This document shows, piece after piece, positions 17,559-43,205 of a stretch of 44,539 nt of DNA. The stretch is from a candidate division SR1 bacterium (GTDB lineage: Bacteria; Patescibacteriota; Gracilibacteria; Absconditabacterales; Absconditicoccaceae). The stretch lies in assembly GCA_007115995.1 (NCBI GenBank), contig SKJI01000012.1, positions 1 through 44,539 of the forward strand. The letters are read 5' to 3'. Made by a program: the position numbers and the translations under genes. Numbering within the stretch: position 1 is the first letter of the stretch; each line of letters begins with the position of its first letter. The notes beneath the pieces were generated by a model. It had not been told where the DNA came from, did not search any database, and saw nothing but the letters and a program-made list of their open reading frames with translations.

Positions 17559-17588
17559 AAAAAAAGGATGATTGATGCATCCTTTTTT
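17559..17588. terminator. terminator of the S10-spc cluster, probably bidirectional
   Basis: An 11-bp stem (AAAAAAGGATG / CATCCTTTTTT) with a 7-base loop lies 54 bases after the secY stop and faces the end of the minus-strand ATP-grasp gene. It has A-runs on one side and T-runs on the other, so it can work on both strands. Confidence 0.88.
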
Positions 17589-17619: not shown

Positions 17620-18855
17620 CTATATATCATTATTTTTTTGTTTTTTCTGCAAGAGTATTGACTTATATGTTTTTATGATTTCTCGAATTTTTTTGTTGTT
17701 TTGGAAAAATGAGATTCACTTTTTGAGAAATGATTGACGTATGACACAAAAATATCTCCACCATCCATGCTTGTGGATAAGTTTAATGTCTGGATTTTTT
17801 TTATTACTTTGTGCAATTGCAACGAGTTTGCTAAAATGATTATCGAGTAGATGATATTTTTCATGTACTGAGAGCGCGCTATCATAAACGACAGTTGGAA
17901 TTCATCATCCTGCGTTACATTCTATTACTTTACAATCTCATGACAGGAGTGCTTCAAGAGATGGTGCTTTGATATCGAATCTTCATGCGCAGATAAATGA
18001 TGGTTCTAAATGTTTAGTAAGTTTTTTGATGACTGTAAGAAGATCTTGCTCTTGCTTTTCAGTAAGATGTATAGTGATATATTTAGTTCAATACTCAATA
18101 CTTGCTGTACGGACAATACTGTGTGTTGTTCATGATTCAGGTATTGAATGCAGAAAATTTTCCTGATTTTCTTCTAATCGCTTGATAATGTTATTATTGT
18201 GACGTGTATCTCTATCGCTTTGCTGAATAAGCTGAAGAATCGTGTCTTTACTGTTTCATTGTACCGTAGGAATATCTCTAAGTGATAATCATCATGTTTG
18301 TATTTCAATATCACCATCCTGGTTGTAGTACTTATAGAATTGGATACAGTATTCTTCTTGGTATGTACAGTATTCTTGTATATATGAGTGATATCATTTT
18401 CTTTCTTTGTTTGCAACTTTTTCAAAATGAATGTTTAGCGCTTTTTCATTATCAATAAAATAGATGCCTAGTCATCTTTCCCCCTGTATCGGTTTGATCA
18501 TGAGCGGGTATTCTAATTTATGATAGTCAGGATGCGATATAACAGCATTGTATGTTAAACCACTCCCTGCTGGGAATGTAATTGATTGAATTCTCTGTCT
18601 ATTTGGTATTTTTTTGTCGATAGCAGTTTTGTCATACTCTGTGAGTCATCAGTATTCAATTCAAGGATTAGCTCGACTGAGTAGAGGAATATATTTTCGT
18701 CGTTTGTAGATAGTTGGTCCAAACTGTACAAGATATGGCAATTCTTCTCGTGTTTTTTCTTGAGATAAAAGATAATCATTAATTTTTGTTATCAATGAGT
18801 TATAGAATGTCGCTGATTTTATCATTACATCTTTATTCTGATTTATTTTTTTCAT
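17620..18855 (-). CDS. ATP-grasp ligase-like protein
   Basis: A 411-residue protein with the marks of an ATP-grasp enzyme. The nucleotide-binding segment PLMIKPIQGERGLGI is at about residues 115-130. The metal-binding core is at about 290-325, with FDIKAPSLEALLSGD and VIECNAGGGIPT. The following YDSALSVHEKYHLL pattern resembles D-alanine-D-alanine-ligase-like ATP-grasp proteins, where this part reads E-x-N and then H/V-YD. ATP-grasp enzymes join a carboxylate to an amine or thiol; the substrates here cannot be read from sequence. It lies 44 bases downstream of the giant surface protein on the same strand and is probably cotranscribed, which could mean cell-wall or surface-protein modification. 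The start is the first ATG after the preceding stop. Confidence 0.75.
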
Positions 18856-18899
18856 CTCGATGGCACTATATCAATATAGATGATAATTGCAAATAAAGC

Positions 18900-21800
18900 T
18901 TACTCATTTAGTGCTTTTTGCAGGAATGATATAATTCCAGGGACATCAATTTGAAGATGCTCTCACATCAAAATATGATCACTGTTTTGCAGTCTTGTAA
19001 TCATATTTCTCACATAGACTAACTGTTCTTGCGCAGATAATGACTGAATGTTTTTGAGTAGCATTTGATAAAATTGCAAGTTATTTCATACAAGATATCT
19101 ATAATTTAAAAATCTATCAGGGAATGATGTAATGATAATATCTGCTGCTTGTTGTCTTGTCACGTATCTAGAGTTATTGTTTGTTTGTGTATGAACTGGT
19201 TGCATAAATCACAAGAAATCAAAGAGATCATCAAGATTGTTATTTGATGCAAGGAGTGGCTGTTGTGTTTGTTGCTCATAGTTTCTTCATCAAGCATTTC
19301 TGATGAGTAGATTAAATTGTGCTGGTGATATCGGAGTAAATGCCTTGAGGTGCGTACGTATTGGATGTGAGTCAGTAATACCATTGAGTATTCAAGCTTG
19401 ATGAGCATAGAGTACATAGCTTGTATACCAAGCTGTTGGTGTCATATCGGTAAATGGGTGTGGTCATGGATAGTATCATCTTTCATTGAACGTTGTATTA
19501 GTACCGATAGCATGTACTTTACTTACCATCTTTATTGCTTCACCAATTCATGTTGGCATTGTACGTTGAAATTTATCTCTATATCATCTTGTAATACAGA
19601 ACAAGGTCATAACATATGATGGATCAAAACGATCTTCTCGTGATATATCTTTGAGACGATTGAGTCTACTGTTATAATCAATATCGTTATACTGACACGC
19701 AAGTTGAATTGTTTGAATCGCATCTCTTAGTTCTGTAGCAATCATAGTAGTTGCTGTAACTCATTGATCAGGAGTTACTTCTAATCTACACGTACTACTA
19801 CATCAGTCTCAATCTATCAGATTTCCATCATCACATTCTTCTCATCGTTCTACAATACCATTTCAACAAATAGGTTGACTAATAGAAGAAATAGTTCATC
19901 TTCATCATCAGCTTCATCCACTTCAAGTTCATCAACCTCATCCTCAATCTCAGTCATCTCAGTCATCTCAGTCTCAGCTATCTCAACCTCAACCATCTCA
20001 TGGAGTATCCGTGATTGGGCATCAGTTATTACTAGCTGGTCAAGGAACTGTTGGACATGCATCATCTGGATCTAAGACTCAATCTCAATCAGTATCACTA
20101 ATTGGAGCATTACATGTAATCGTATTATCTCAGCTACATTGCCATTGTCGGTAAGATCAGTTTCTAACAACAGTAGATGGACTTCCTACACTACAAAGCT
20201 CTCAAGCTGGGATATTATTGTTTGGATAGTTGTTTTGCGTTGCTATACCACATACTGCTTCTTGACATACTGCTGCCTGAATAGTTCATGAATCGGTTCG
20301 TCTTTGACATGTTTCTCAGTTACTTTCATAGGTTATTCTTGCTCTATATAACCCAGGAGGGAGATCAGTAAAGAGTATATTTGTAACTCCTGATTGTGGG
20401 CTACCAAATATTTCTAGATTTCTATATAGTTGAACAGAAACTGCTGTTTGATTTGTATTCATCATTTCAATAAGGAATGTTCAATTTTCTGCATTGCATG
20501 TTGTTTCATTCGTAAGGTGAATACGATGTTGTCATAGTTCAGTACATGCATCTTCTCAATCACTTCACCCTCATCAACCACCTCAGCATCATGATTGAAT
20601 GGTAAATGGCATTGTGCTCACTACACAAGTGTCTGCATAATTTTGATTTGTATATGTAGCACTCACAGTATATGTTCATGGTATTAACCCAGTAAATAAT
20701 CATGTTGTATTACTCATTCATGGGACTGGAGTGTTTCCAATCATTAGTTGGTAGGTAATAGGTCAGTCATCATTGAGGTGTTGACCAAATATTACTTCTA
20801 CTTGTACTGTTCAGTCATTTTCATTACATGCTGACTCATTTGTTTGTGAGATAACACGCAAAATACGATCATCACAGCTTCACTCACATGATGCAGCACC
20901 AACATAAATAGATGAAGATGTACTTACAGAACAGCTTGCATTTGTTGCGCTTGTATATAATACTTCTACTGTATATGATCACGGATTCAATCATGTAAAT
21001 AGACCATGTTGATTAGTTTGTATAATTACTCATCATTGTTTTAGTTGGTATGAACTAATGGTGTTTCAACTATCTCAAGAGAATGATGCAGTTATTGTTC
21101 AATCATTTGCTCAACAAGTTGTTTCAGCACTACTTGTAGTAGTGACTTGAGCACTACTATCACATGAGGCACATTCAGCTGCATCAATCGTAAACTCTCC
21201 AAACACATTACACTGTGTATCACCATTATTTCTAGTATATTCAAGATTAACGGAATACGTTCATGGAGCTAAGTTATCAAAGAATCAGTGTGTATTGGTC
21301 ATGGTTTGGGTAGAGCTACTTGTAACTCGAATTCAACTAATATCTCATCATTCTGGATCATTGAGTGTTATAGTTGCTGTTCCATTATTAAAATTACATG
21401 ATGATTCATCTCCTGTTTCTATAGTGAGAGTAGCATTACATGCTTCATTTTGAAATGGGTATATAATAATATTTCATTCACTTATTGTACATGTTTCTCA
21501 ATTATCAGCTGTGTATTCTGCTTGTACCATATAGAGATGAGGATTTTGACTAGTTTGGGGTGATAATCATTCGAATGTATAAGGATTGCTCGGATTCATC
21601 TCGATATTACTACTTTGTGTTCGGATATTTATGAGTGTATACTGATTCATACTCCAAGGTGCTTCATTTGGAAGATTATGGCTGATTGTTATTGATCAGA
21701 ATGGATTTGAAGCATTTGGATGTATTACATTCATATCGAGAATGTCTTGAGGATTGAGTGTACATCCAATACATTCAGCTTCTTCAATGATTATAGTTTC

Positions 21801-24779
21801 ATTTTCTAGATTACAAGTTTCACCAAGCTGTGTATATGTTCAGCTCATCATATATGCTCATGGTTCTAGGTTATTGAAACCTGCTGACGCTCCAGTTTCT
21901 GTTTGTATGCCTCCACCTCATCATAATGGAGTAAGTGTTACTGTTTGCTGAGTAATATCATTTCAAGAAAATATATAGGAGATAGCTCAATCATGAGCAA
22001 GACATGCTGTCTCATTGGTAAATTCATAGAGTAGTTCTGCGTTACAAGCTTCAAGAATAGTGACTTCTTGATTTCACGGCTGTGTATTGTTTTGGTTATT
22101 ACAATTATAGACTAATTGAAATTCATATATTCATCAAGTGAGATCATTTATAGTTGCTGAAATAATTATTGGATTTGATGATGAGTCTATTGTGGTTGTT
22201 TCAGTATTAATTCGTGGATTCGTTGTTCAAACTATTCTATACTGTATTGCAAGATTTGATAGATTACTTTCTTCTCGACTTTCATCAGTATTATCATAGG
22301 TATATGTAATAGTTATGGATCAGTTTGGAGTTGTTCATCACGAATTGTTTGTAATATTTTCAATACTTACCGAGAAGTTTTCATCTGATGGACATTCCAA
22401 TCACCCTCATCAGTCTAGAATAATAAATGTATTCGATCAAGAAATAACTGGTTCATCACATTCATATGTAATTCTATACTCATAATTTCAAGGATCAAGG
22501 TTATTGAGAGTAACAGTATAAGAATTTTCAAGAGCGTTGAAGATAACATCTCAAGCACTTTCCCAAGGTTGGGAAGAGTTTTCTACTCTATACTCAAAGA
22601 GAAGGTCATCAAAGGTAAATCAAGCAGGAGGAGAGAATGTAATTGTTGCTGTATCATTAAGCAAGAAGACATCAACGTAATTATCGATAAGCAATGGGTC
22701 AATACATTCCAATCACCCTCATCAGTCTAGAATAATAAGCGATCCACTTTCTGATCGATTATCATCATCGCAAGTATATGCTATCGTATATGAGTATTCT
22801 CATGCTGCTAAATCTGAAAGTATTCGAGTACGTATTCCAGTTGTTTCATTAAAACTTCATGCTCATGCAGAAATCGGATTTCAACCTACAAGGTTGTACA
22901 TAAGTTCAATGTTATTGAAACTATTTCATGTTCATTCTTGTAGTGTAATCGTCACTGTTTGCCATAGTATATCCACATTCACTGCGTTTGTTAATTCCGC
23001 TTGTGTTAGACATTGTTCAGTTTCTTCTTCAGTAATCGTCACAGTAATAGGTATTGCAATCTCATTTCAATTGCATTCATAAAATAATGTAAATGTATGA
23101 TCTCATGGCATCAATCATGGAATTACTCGTTCATTTCATCAAGATGGTGTAATCTCTTCATTATTATTATCTTCTAAACGGATATTATTGAAAATATTTC
23201 ATGCAATCTCATCGAAGGTAATAGTCGCAGTTCAAAGATTTGTACTTACATTATAAAGTTCGCTAGAGTCTCATCAGTAACATACTTCTTCAAGTCAGAT
23301 ATGAATATTTGTAAAGACTGAGCTAATTGGATCTAATGTTATTGTTCCTGTTTGATTATTATCATTTGGGAAGAAAAACATGATTTTATTCCCGTTTGGA
23401 GCACTGTCAGAGTTTGGAGCAATAATGTATCAACTTGGAGCTGTAGCTTTTATAACATATGATCAATAATCTCAAGTAAATACATAAGTACTATTTGTTC
23501 ACACTGAGCTAATTGTTTTTATAGGATCTCAATTTTGTAGGAGTTCTATTTCAATATCTCAAACATATAATGCGTCATCTTCTTCAATATACAATCAGTC
23601 ACTATTATAATCTATAAAGACTAGTCAGCTGATTATTCATTCATCATCTCATGGGTTTTGAGTTTCATTTTCTACACAAAAGTTGTAATTTATTGTACAG
23701 TTTGAGTTACAAGTTACATTTCAAGAATATGTAACTGTTGATGTATTGAGATCACTACATGATGCGCCTCACAACTCGTCTCAGTCACACTCTTCTGCAC
23801 CATTTATTATTCAATCACCACAATAAAAGTTTGTAGCAGAACAAGTTGTTTCGTCAGGACAGTCTCGGGTTCGAGTGGTTCATCCGTAATTTATATTTTC
23901 AGGAATCCCTGTACTATTACATAGGCTTGTACCGTAATGATCTTGTGGTGGAGTTATTTCTGTTGAATAATAATCATCAAAATCACTACATGTTTGACAG
24001 CTTTGACATTGAAATTCAGGTACGAAAATACATTTACTATTTTGGTTACATGCCCCTTCATTCATTCATATACTTGGACATAATACTCACGTATTCATAC
24101 AAGTATTACTAATAGGATTCCATTCACATTCAGCTGACTGTTGACTATTACAGACGTTTTGTCATGCTGATGTTAGAGAATTACAATCAGTTATATATTG
24201 ACATCAAAATAGATCATTTTGTGTGCATATTGCTCAATTAGCACATGGTGCTCAGTCAATGGTACATGCACTTCAACATGATAATCATTCATTTGAACAA
24301 TCACAAGTCAATTCTTGATGCCACTGACAATTTAATTCAGTATTACAGGTATTTTCATTGAGACCATCGCAGCTTATTCATAAGTATACACATGAGCTTC
24401 AAGTTCGTTCGCATCATGCAGATGCATTACATACATTTTCTCAAGCAGATGAAAGAGCGCTACAGTCCACCATTTGTTCACATGTTCATGGGTTATTTGC
24501 TGTACTACACACTCAGCTTCCTCATCAACAAAGAGCTCATTCTGGTCCTGTCATACATACTTCACCACATTGAGCATCATCTGCAAATACTTCCGATCCT
24601 TGATGGTGTGGTGTTGTGATTGATCAGCTACCGTATATACTAAAAAATACTCATAGTAGTACTATACTGAGACCTGAAAACAGTGTTGCAGCGGTTACTC
24701 AATAAATACTAAAAAATCTCTTTACTGTACGGATGCATGATAGAGCACCATGTATCATTACTTTGAAAATATGATTCAT
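18900..24779 (-). CDS. giant multidomain surface protein with SLH-like C-terminus
   Basis: A 1959-residue secreted or anchored protein, open throughout only if TGA is Gly. The order seen is: a hydrophobic signal/anchor segment (residues about 22-50); a Cys-rich region (about 68-310) with a repeated unit containing SAGxNVCN; a Myxococcus-type Cys-rich repeat CGDGIINGAEECDG (about 320-345); a prealbumin-like SdrD B-type domain starting ISGLVFIDYNSDG (about 380-490); a long array of beta-type repeats with paired Cys and the recurring pattern LxPGxY (about 495-1540), like SprB or other adhesin repeats; a thrombospondin type 3 calcium motif DTDGDGVLDPDDACP (about 1563-1580); a Gly/Asp linker (1593-1629); a second Cys-rich repeat CGNGIVERGEECDDGN (from 1638); and an SLH-like domain with IGEAIKMVSKVHAIG and WYTSYVLYAHQAGILNG (about 1740-1832). 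Probably a cell-surface adhesin or S-layer-associated protein; its ligand is unknown. Confidence 0.85.
19893..20003 (-). repeat. TGA-rich glycine linker inside the giant surface protein
   Basis: Thirty-seven codons of which 17 are TGA and five GGN; the rest are mainly Asp, Ser and Thr. They form a flexible Gly/Asp linker between the calcium-binding motif and the second Cys-rich repeat. The complementary strand gives a long Ser-rich open frame (TCA codons) that is a shadow. Confidence 0.85.
22393..22426 (-). repeat. exact 34-base direct repeat, copy 1
   Basis: Identical over 34 bases to 22705-22738. Both copies are in the giant surface gene and encode the junction IILDGGGLEC between repeat domains. 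The spacing of 312 bases equals 104 codons, one domain length, which points to duplication or gene conversion of a domain. Confidence 0.9.
22705..22738 (-). repeat. exact 34-base direct repeat, copy 2
   Basis: Second copy of the repeat at 22393-22426, in the same frame and orientation, at the same place in the neighbouring domain. Confidence 0.9.
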
Positions 24780-24944
24780 CACATTTTTTCTAAGAATAAA
24801 AAATCTTACTAAGAGTATACCTAAAAAAAATTATCTGTAAAAAATTATTCGAAAATAGATATGTTTTTATTTGACATATTTTTTAAACAATATAAGAAAC
24901 GTTTGAAATTAATGTTTATTTTATCTAGAAAGAGTGATTTTCTA

Positions 24945-26066
24945 TTACTTTTTTGAGAGAAGATTTTTTCGTAGTGTTTTATAGTCTTGATAGCATATTG
25001 ATCGATCAAATATTTTTTTGGGTATAGTTGTGTAAGAGTTATGAATAAGTTTTTTCCGTGCATTGAGAAATGATTGCGTTGAGTGGTCATCTAAGAAAAT
25101 AACTTTTCAAAAGACTACTTCGGGTAGAGCACCAAATTGTGTTGTGATCAGAATCTTTTTCGTTGCACTTGCTTCGGCTGCAGCAAGGCCAAATCATTCA
25201 CTTAACGAAGGCACAATGATTGCATGACAATCATCGATTTGCTGAAAAAGTTTTTCTTGTGGTAGATTTTGGTGTAGGTGTATGGTGTATTGTTTTTGTA
25301 AACATTTGAGTTTTTTTATAATACGTGAAGTATTTTTGGATGGCAATAAAGAAAAAATAAACTGTGTACGAGGATACTGTTCTGCAATAGTTGGCAGTGC
25401 AGTCAGATATTCATCTATTCATTTTGAAAATCAACAATGACCAAAATATAAAACCTTTAACGGTTGATCATGAGATCACACTCATCATTTGGAAATTGTA
25501 GAGAATTTTTGATCAATACCATTGTAAATACGTTCTATAGGACTGCTAGGATTGTGTTGTAGCACACTCTTGTAGGTAAATGTAGAGACAGTCACTATTG
25601 TATCAAAATGAATAGTACATAAGAATTTTTCGTATCAACGATATAATCGATGTGATCGAGGATATGCTTTTTTCCATAATGCTCCAAAGAGTTCATGAAC
25701 TGTTAGAGTGACTGGAATATTCGCTCATTTTCCCAAACACCAAGCAATAATAGGAACAGCAATAGTACTTGTATGTATAAGTTGTGGTTGATTTTTTTGT
25801 TTCATCAATCAAGTAAAAATCTTACGTGCCTTTCGCCATCAACAAAAAAACCAACTAGTTCTTTTATGTCACACTCTATAAATAGTTGCTCATCATATCT
25901 GTTCTTTATCTGGAACTGTTTGAGTATGTTTTGTAGTAATAATACTCACAGTCACTTCATCCGCTATAAGTTTTTCTACAAGTTTTCCAAAAACTTTTTC
26001 TGCTCATCATTGATAAGGTAGGTAATAGTCCAAACAAAATACTATATGCGAAAGTGTTGGTTTCAT
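24945..26066 (-). CDS. GT4-type glycosyltransferase
   Basis: A 373-residue glycosyltransferase of the GT-B fold, which moves a sugar from an activated donor to an acceptor on the cytoplasmic side. The N-terminal half starts HIVFCLDYYLPYQGGAEKVF, the usual acceptor-side glycine loop. The C-terminal donor-binding half has IYNGID, VLYFGHCGFSKGID and PSLSEGFGLAAAEA at about 280-295, which carries the E-x7-E pattern of family GT4, followed by GALPEVV. No membrane segment is seen. It lies 165 bases upstream of the giant surface gene on the same strand, so it may glycosylate surface material, possibly that protein. The donor sugar is unknown. It diverges from the L10 cluster. Confidence 0.9.
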
Positions 26067-41954: not shown

Positions 41955-41963
41955 TTGATACCA

Positions 41964-43205
41964 ATGAGCAAACGTGATTTTCCAATTTTTGCAGAGAATC
42001 CAGGGATGATTTACTTGGATAGTGCTGCTACCGCTCAAAAACCCTGATTTGTGCTTGCATGAATAACAGATTATTTGTCGCGCGATTATGCAAATGTGCA
42101 TAGGGGTGAATATCCGCTGTCGTTTCGCAGTGAGGATCGTTTTTGGGCGTGAAGAGAGGCAGTTGCTGCGTGGATGGATGTGGATCCTGCAGAGGTTGTT
42201 TTTACTGGAAGTGGCACTGATGCGTCCAACAAACTCGTTTCAGCGCTGTTTTTTTCGTCGATGATACAGCCGTGAGATCGTTTGATGGTGAGCATGGTCG
42301 AACATCATGCAAATATTGTGCCGTGGCAGATCTTTGCCGAACGTTATGGGTGTGAGATAGTGTGGATACCAGTCAGTAGTGACTGAGCGGTAGATCTCCA
42401 CTGGCTCCAAGAACACTATGATCATCGTGTGCGTGTTGTTGCAATAAGTGCTGCATCAAATGTGACGGGAGTGTTGACTGATATTCCTGCAGTGCATGCG
42501 TTGTTGCATGAACAAACCTACCTAGTTGTTGATGCATCGCAAGCAATCGTGCATAGTCCGGTCTTGCCCAATCAGTGGGGAGCAGATTTTTGTTGGTGGA
42601 CAGGACATAAGATCGGTGCGTTGACTGGGATTGGTGTGTTGCGATGAAAGAAAGCACATCTCGAACGTCTGCAGCCGATGCGATGATGATGATGAGCGAT
42701 CATGACGGTATGAGTAGATGGCTACATGTTGCAAGCGAGTCCGGACAAATTTGAACCATGAACGCCCAATCTTGTCTGAGTGGTCTCGTTGGATCTTGCG
42801 TTGCAGTATCTGCGTACGTGGTCGAGAGCACATTGAGAAGATGGTACAGTAGCTTGATTTTATCGTGCCTTGCATGCCTATGAATCGCCCTTATTTTCAT
42901 ACATCTTTGAGCAATGCGCGTTGTTGGAAGATGCTGGCGTTGTCTTACTCGGTAGTCGTGAATATAGCAAAAAAATATGAGTATTCTCGATGCGTATTCC
43001 ATCGCTCGTTGATCGTGGGTTTGGTGCGTACTGTGGTGCGAGGAATATTGCAATAAGATGCTGATGATTGTGTGCACAGCCGTTTCATGATCAACATGGG
43101 CTCACCCAATGAACCTGTAGAATAAGTACTTGGCTCTATACAGACATCGATGAGTTGGAGAAATTCTTTGCGGTGGTGCAGGAGTTTTTGTGAAGAAATC
43201 CCTAA
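41964..43205 (+). CDS. cysteine desulfurase (SufS/Csd-like)
   Basis: A PLP-dependent class V aminotransferase-fold enzyme that takes sulfur from cysteine to make alanine and an enzyme persulfide, for iron-sulfur clusters or thio-modification of tRNA. Of its 413 residues, the start has YLDSAATAQKP and VHRGEYPLS, the PLP lysine is Lys216 in WTGHKIGALTG, the PLP-binding VEHHANIVPWQ is at about 115, and the persulfide cysteine is Cys370 in GGLCAQPF (SufS type RxGHHCAQP). No suf partner genes are next to it. It is visibly richer in G+C than the ribosomal genes, yet uses TGA for glycine, so any transfer is old. Confidence 0.92.

Follow-up and report, generated by a model that had tools for sequence, protein, structure and literature searches.

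Three minus-strand genes stand side by side between two ribosomal clusters in the window (the whole 44,539-nucleotide stretch of DNA analysed here), encoding a GT4 glycosyltransferase, a giant exported protein and an ATP-grasp ligase-like enzyme. Do they form one system that makes, decorates and attaches a large surface protein for contact with a host cell, as the initial annotation proposed in naming them its best candidate for an undescribed system, or are they neighbours of separate function?

Gene layout and genetic code

As contig C18, the window belongs to a genome of 1.0 Mb and 94.5% completeness. Read with TGA as glycine (code 25), it yields a dense, normal gene map with ribosomal genes, secY, rpoB and rpoC, and the standard code gives short open reading frames (ORFs); in the region of the trio, table 11 produces no ORF longer than 100 aa, and the genes appear solely under code 25. 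The giant gene uses 146 TGA glycine codons. Since the three ORFs reach such lengths free of TAA and TAG at 33% GC, a chance origin is excluded, and under code 25 the annotated arrangement of a GT4 enzyme, a 1959-residue exported protein and an ATP-grasp protein is borne out (Table 1). The trio sits between plus-strand secY and rplJ, with rplO and secY on the upstream flank, also on the plus strand, and rplJ, rplL, an rpsB-like gene, rpoB and rpoC on the downstream flank. The giant gene starts at a GTG at 24782 (1960 aa) or an in-frame ATG at 24779 (1959 aa) and stops at 18900. The ATP-grasp ATG follows 45 nt past this stop; were the GTG at 18966 used instead, the longer ORF would run into the giant gene. 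On the same strand, GT4 and giant genes are separated by about 162 nt, and the 45-nt gap makes co-transcription of the giant and ATP-grasp genes possible. A phage origin of the genes is not supported, as PHROGs comparison returned a generic glycosyltransferase match alone and viral contigs contained no ATP-grasp relative.

Table 1. Features of the three-gene region, in window coordinates
Feature	Position	Strand	Basis
GT4 glycosyltransferase P0003, 373 aa	24945..26066	-	Pfam PF13439 E 2e-19, PF00534 E 5e-14
Weak promoter-like site within the 162 nt between GT4 and giant genes	24814..24841	-	TTTACA-16-TATACT, 10/12; scan total not above shuffles
Giant exported protein P0001, 1959 aa from ATG	18900..24779	-	Code-25 ORF
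N-terminal hydrophobic segment, residues ~23-56, signal peptide or membrane anchor	24615..24716	-	Hydropathy >1.6 across 19 residues
Cys-rich region, residues ~70-380	23643..24575	-	5-16 Cys per 100 residues
Beta-sandwich-like domain array, residues ~500-1530	20193..23285	-	Y_Y_Y PF07495 E 2e-9, three stretches
DUF4215 / Myxococcus-type Cys-rich repeat, residues 1633-1669	19776..19886	-	PF13948 E 3e-8; TIGR02232 E 1e-13
C-terminal SLH-like region, residues ~1690-1960	18903..19715	-	PF00395 match at 19371-19457; Foldseek Sap/SpaA
ATP-grasp carboxylate-amine ligase-like P0002, 411 aa	17620..18855	-	Profile match to cyanophycin/glutathione synthetases
Terminator-like hairpin, convergent secY/ATP-grasp	17560..17588	-	11-pair stem + T run; count equals chance

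Elsewhere in the window, ribosomal protein L27 (38005-38607) bears a C-terminal extension of about 120 residues with a helix-hairpin-helix-like stretch, and a similar tail is found in an unrelated protein of genome G200 (L073:3126-3896). An aminotransferase class V/SufS-like gene at 41955-43205 has 47% GC, against about 33% elsewhere, and was perhaps recently acquired. At the contig end (43356-44192), a pilin-like protein runs through a low-complexity D/P linker into a DUF5122 beta-propeller match.

Architecture of the giant protein

With an N-terminal hydrophobic segment and an SLH-like C terminus, the giant protein looks exported and surface-located, in line with the initial annotation. Its description as Cys-rich holds chiefly for residues 70-380 and not for the whole length: about half of the 81 Cys fall within the first 400 residues. 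The beta-sandwich array also draws weaker Ig-like, MG2 and Big_2 matches below cut-off, an SdrD_B-like stretch is present, and self-BLAST listed no repeats.

The C terminus gives one partial match to the Pfam SLH model (PF00395; 21.4 bits, cut-off 20.8). Its structure was predicted, as the initial annotation had advised, for 290 residues from a four-sequence alignment (pLDDT 62), giving a helical model. The four best PDB matches in Foldseek are SLH structures, Sap and SpaA among them, with probabilities of 0.94-0.99 and TM scores of about 0.5 on target length, although no E-value is better than 0.13. TRAE-like motifs are mostly absent, the sole clear one being VTRQQ-like, and hhalign of this region against the genome's own clear SLH proteins returned a probability of 7.5%. 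The evidence argues moderately for a predicted SLH fold at the C terminus and weakly for ligand binding by it, the latter because of the missing motifs and the poor profile match to the genome's own SLH proteins.

A putative wall anchor encoded elsewhere

Anchoring of SLH proteins through CsaB is established in Gram-positive bacteria (PMC6030368), and SLH proteins have been reported for Absconditicoccaceae/Absconditabacteria (PMC13059738). The window's genome holds three SLH matches above cut-off, and each of six genomes (the window's and five of the nearest genus) encodes exactly one polysaccharide pyruvyl transferase above cut-off (PF04230). For the transferase of the window's genome, CsaB is the best and only NCBIfam match (E 1e-22; 80 bits, curated cut-off 213). 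On contig C6 of this genome, the csaB-like gene precedes a ComEC-like gene and then that of an SLH-bearing exported protein, an order kept in nearest-genus genomes. This conserved set of a CsaB-like enzyme, a ComEC-N-like membrane protein and an SLH exported protein (L179, own C6, 3805-7290; L182, L183, L184 and L186) resembles an S-layer locus in code-25 CPR bacteria. Because a single CsaB-like transferase is encoded elsewhere in the genome, the likely attachment of the giant is a non-covalent SLH wall anchor rather than the product of the ATP-grasp gene. The arrangement is like SLH/CsaB wall-polymer systems in the C-terminal SLH match of the giant and in one CsaB-like gene per genome, yet it differs in that the SLH region is divergent with most TRAE-like motifs missing and the CsaB score lies below the curated cut-off, and the anchor stays putative.

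The trio in related genomes

Conserved linkage, on which the initial annotation had itself staked its proposal, was not found: among 49 family and 192 class genomes, with the window's genus represented solely by the window's own genome, the trio occurs together in none besides the latter. Strong GT and ATP-grasp matches never share a contig and lie on different contigs in all genomes having both. Setting aside matches to the widespread DUF4215 repeat, relatives of the giant's C-terminal domain itself come mainly from g11, the nearest genus, where the homologues (31-40% identical) stand in arrays of other giant genes, with neither GT nor ATP-grasp. Two loci, L071 and L072 (G199 C61 and G101 C40), are one-strand tandem arrays of DUF4215/SLH-type giants of 900-2575 residues. 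The space between secY and rplJ in G101, a nearest-genus genome, is instead occupied by a VanW-domain gene plus one of no known kind. As the trio is never together outside the window and the G101 gap differs, the arrangement is, within the genomes sampled, specific to the window's lineage.

Nor is the giant itself exceptional. Vampirococcus lugosii and other Absconditabacteria encode giant membrane or surface proteins with a proposed role in host recognition (PMC8080830); the window's giant shares with them very large size, export and adhesion-type domains in code-25 CPR bacteria, and differs in domain set, with its Cys-rich head, DUF4215 and SLH-like tail. Since giant and SLH proteins have already been reported from Absconditabacteria, it is an ordinary kind of surface protein for these bacteria, and with the trio unconserved, the case for an undescribed system falls away.

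The GT4 gene recurs beside unrelated giants

Both GT-B domains of P0003 exceed the Pfam cut-off, and the EX7E motif (EGFGLAAAE) can be read from the translation. Homologues occur in 39 of the 49 family genomes. Counting as giant an immediate neighbour of more than 800 residues, rich in N/T/S and poor in K/R, a giant exported protein directly adjoins the GT4 gene in 11 of 33 loci from 5 of 15 genera (window included), whereas genes from background regions not picked by GT give rates of 1/269 and 4/320 (about 1%; 1 of the 17 random background stretches was masked). Against a 1.25% background, such a spread over genera would arise by chance with a probability of about 1e-6, window included; the test was devised post hoc and its genera lack independence, since one giant family is common to g6 and g2 and a second to g15 and g9. 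Two candidate giants were rejected: a 20-kb "single gene" in background stretch L211, which is masked N, and a protein of 881 aa adjoining the GT in g3, whose sequence and composition resemble an aminoacyl-tRNA synthetase.

Giants beside the GT4 gene are of three unrelated types, LRR/Ig (g6, g2), DUF11 (g15, g9) and Cys-rich SLH (window), with 26-37% Asn/Thr/Ser, and their orientation to the GT4 gene is variously tandem, convergent or divergent. The GT4 gene is also retained in genera with no adjacent giant, and three GTs from outside the family do not stand beside giants. In g11 it is absent, yet homologous giants are present, so that it is not required for the window's giant type. The link between GT4 and a large exported protein that the initial annotation drew receives support from these counts. 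We take the adjacency as a real association and assign it no meaning, because the test is post hoc, the genera are not independent and the orientations differ.

The ATP-grasp enzyme

As a single sequence, P0002 gives a weak Pfam match (PF13535, E 0.011), while a 13-sequence profile matches glutathione synthetase (E 2e-12) and cyanophycin synthetase (E 3e-9) in the PDB. K121, R292, D294, E312 and N314 are invariant across the 13 homologues, with the ATP-binding Lys and Mg-binding Glu/Asn kept, and this ATP-grasp core is like that of cyanophycin synthetase, GshAB and RimK-type ligases. It differs in that the 411-aa window copy has no Mur-ligase half and carries GNS in place of the GDG loop; against the cyanophycin synthetase model it scores 29 bits (cut-off 850), with no full-length match that includes the Mur-ligase domain. 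No hydrophobic segment appears in its hydropathy profile, so it is presumably cytosolic.

Relatives occur in 25 of the 192 class genomes; in a genome-collection scan, P0002 as a single query found no match, and a 5-row alignment found 46 loci. In the tree, the branch of the window's copy is very long and groups with long-form relatives from two g11 genomes and a different family of the class Gracilibacteria. Short-form relatives in g6 and g11 adjoin a PLP decarboxylase, and hydrolases too; the decarboxylase is above cut-off in 5 of 5 short-form and 0 of 3 long-form genomes, the window's among the three. At such loci (L098:7146-9707, L064:6315-9286, L062 and relatives) the decarboxylase is of diaminobutyrate/aspartate/tyrosine type, genes for an alpha/beta hydrolase or a small membrane protein stand alongside, and an amine-conjugate pathway is possible. 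Directly upstream of the long form in only two g11 genomes stands a 378-384-residue protein of no known kind (L095:1508-2644, L097:73-1227). Other relatives adjoin VTT membrane proteins or LysE translocators, the latter in Bacteroidota, or prfA, ECF sigma and solute-binding genes, and a distant one (G055, L070) adjoins GT2 and GT4 genes. The window's copy has no decarboxylase, VTT or LysE partner nearby, and none of the relatives examined stands beside a giant exported protein. Because these neighbours are PLP decarboxylase, VTT/LysE transporter and housekeeping genes, this carboxylate-amine ligase would seem to act on small molecules; an amide- or ester-forming attachment step for the giant, as initially proposed, finds no support.

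Discussion

Could the trio nevertheless be one system for host attachment, with the GT4 enzyme glycosylating the giant adhesin and the ATP-grasp enzyme modifying or attaching it through an amide or ester? The shared strand and short gaps, the recurrence of GT4 beside giants, the intact ATP-grasp catalytic residues and the G055 relative beside GT2 and GT4 genes speak for it. We nonetheless consider it very improbable, since the trio is unique to the window's genome within the set searched, the ATP-grasp relatives have other recurrent partners, the enzyme is presumably cytosolic, and the SLH region and CsaB-like enzyme already point to an anchor. A lineage-specific modification unit, in which the common GT4-giant pair was joined by a ligase from a subfamily without the usual partner genes, GT4 glycosylating and the ATP-grasp enzyme adding an amino compound to the giant or its wall anchor before export, seems more remote still.

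In streptococci, GtfA, a GT4 enzyme, pairs with serine-rich repeat adhesins. The window's GT4 gene likewise adjoins a large adhesin-like gene, and the two could be a functional pair, an adhesin with its own glycosyltransferase, leaving the ATP-grasp enzyme a bystander. The excess of adjacency over background, spread over three unrelated giant types, and the Asn/Thr/Ser content of the giants fit such a pairing, which we hold to be possible but doubtful: varied orientations imply no operon, the GT persists in genera without an adjacent giant and is missing from g11, and GTs outside the family do not stand beside giants. Also unlike streptococcal GtfA, the window's GT4 has no second glycosyltransferase adjoining it, the giants are mutually unrelated, and no GtfA is found among NCBIfam matches to P0003 up to E 1. 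Accessory-Sec adhesin glycosylation was rejected given the lack of a GtfA match, the orientations and the absence from g11. That the ATP-grasp product is instead a secreted graspetide-like or dipeptide-like compound unconnected with the surface is improbable. The enzyme's chemistry and the LysE-type exporters beside Bacteroidota relatives would suit this, but the short gaps contain no precursor peptide gene, the window's copy has no adjoining exporter, and its relatives resemble cyanophycin and glutathione synthetases; on these grounds the graspetide reading was rejected.

We consider it fairly probable that the trio is a lineage-specific block of an SLH-anchored giant, a GT4 enzyme of the envelope or of giants, and a small-molecule ATP-grasp neighbour, three envelope- or metabolism-type genes placed between the secY end of one ribosomal cluster and the rplJL-rpoBC cluster. 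In this lineage-specific block, the N-terminal signal or anchor would carry the giant through Sec, its Cys-rich region and rod of Ig-like domains would point outward from the cell, and, judging from gene content, the divergent SLH region would probably bind non-covalently a wall polymer pyruvylated by the CsaB-like enzyme encoded on contig C6. From its family and repeated adjacency to unrelated giants, the GT4 enzyme may transfer sugar in the cytosol onto an envelope glycan or onto giants. The ATP-grasp enzyme, as a carboxylate-amine ligase most likely of small molecules, would be a neighbour, perhaps co-transcribed, outside any surface-protein machine.

Our analysis removes a three-part surface system and leaves a GT4 gene found repeatedly beside unrelated giants in this code-25 CPR family, together with a CsaB-like/SLH route by which code-25 CPR bacteria may retain surface proteins. 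Both the GT4-giant association and the CsaB/SLH content bear on how the host-contacting surface of these bacteria gets built.
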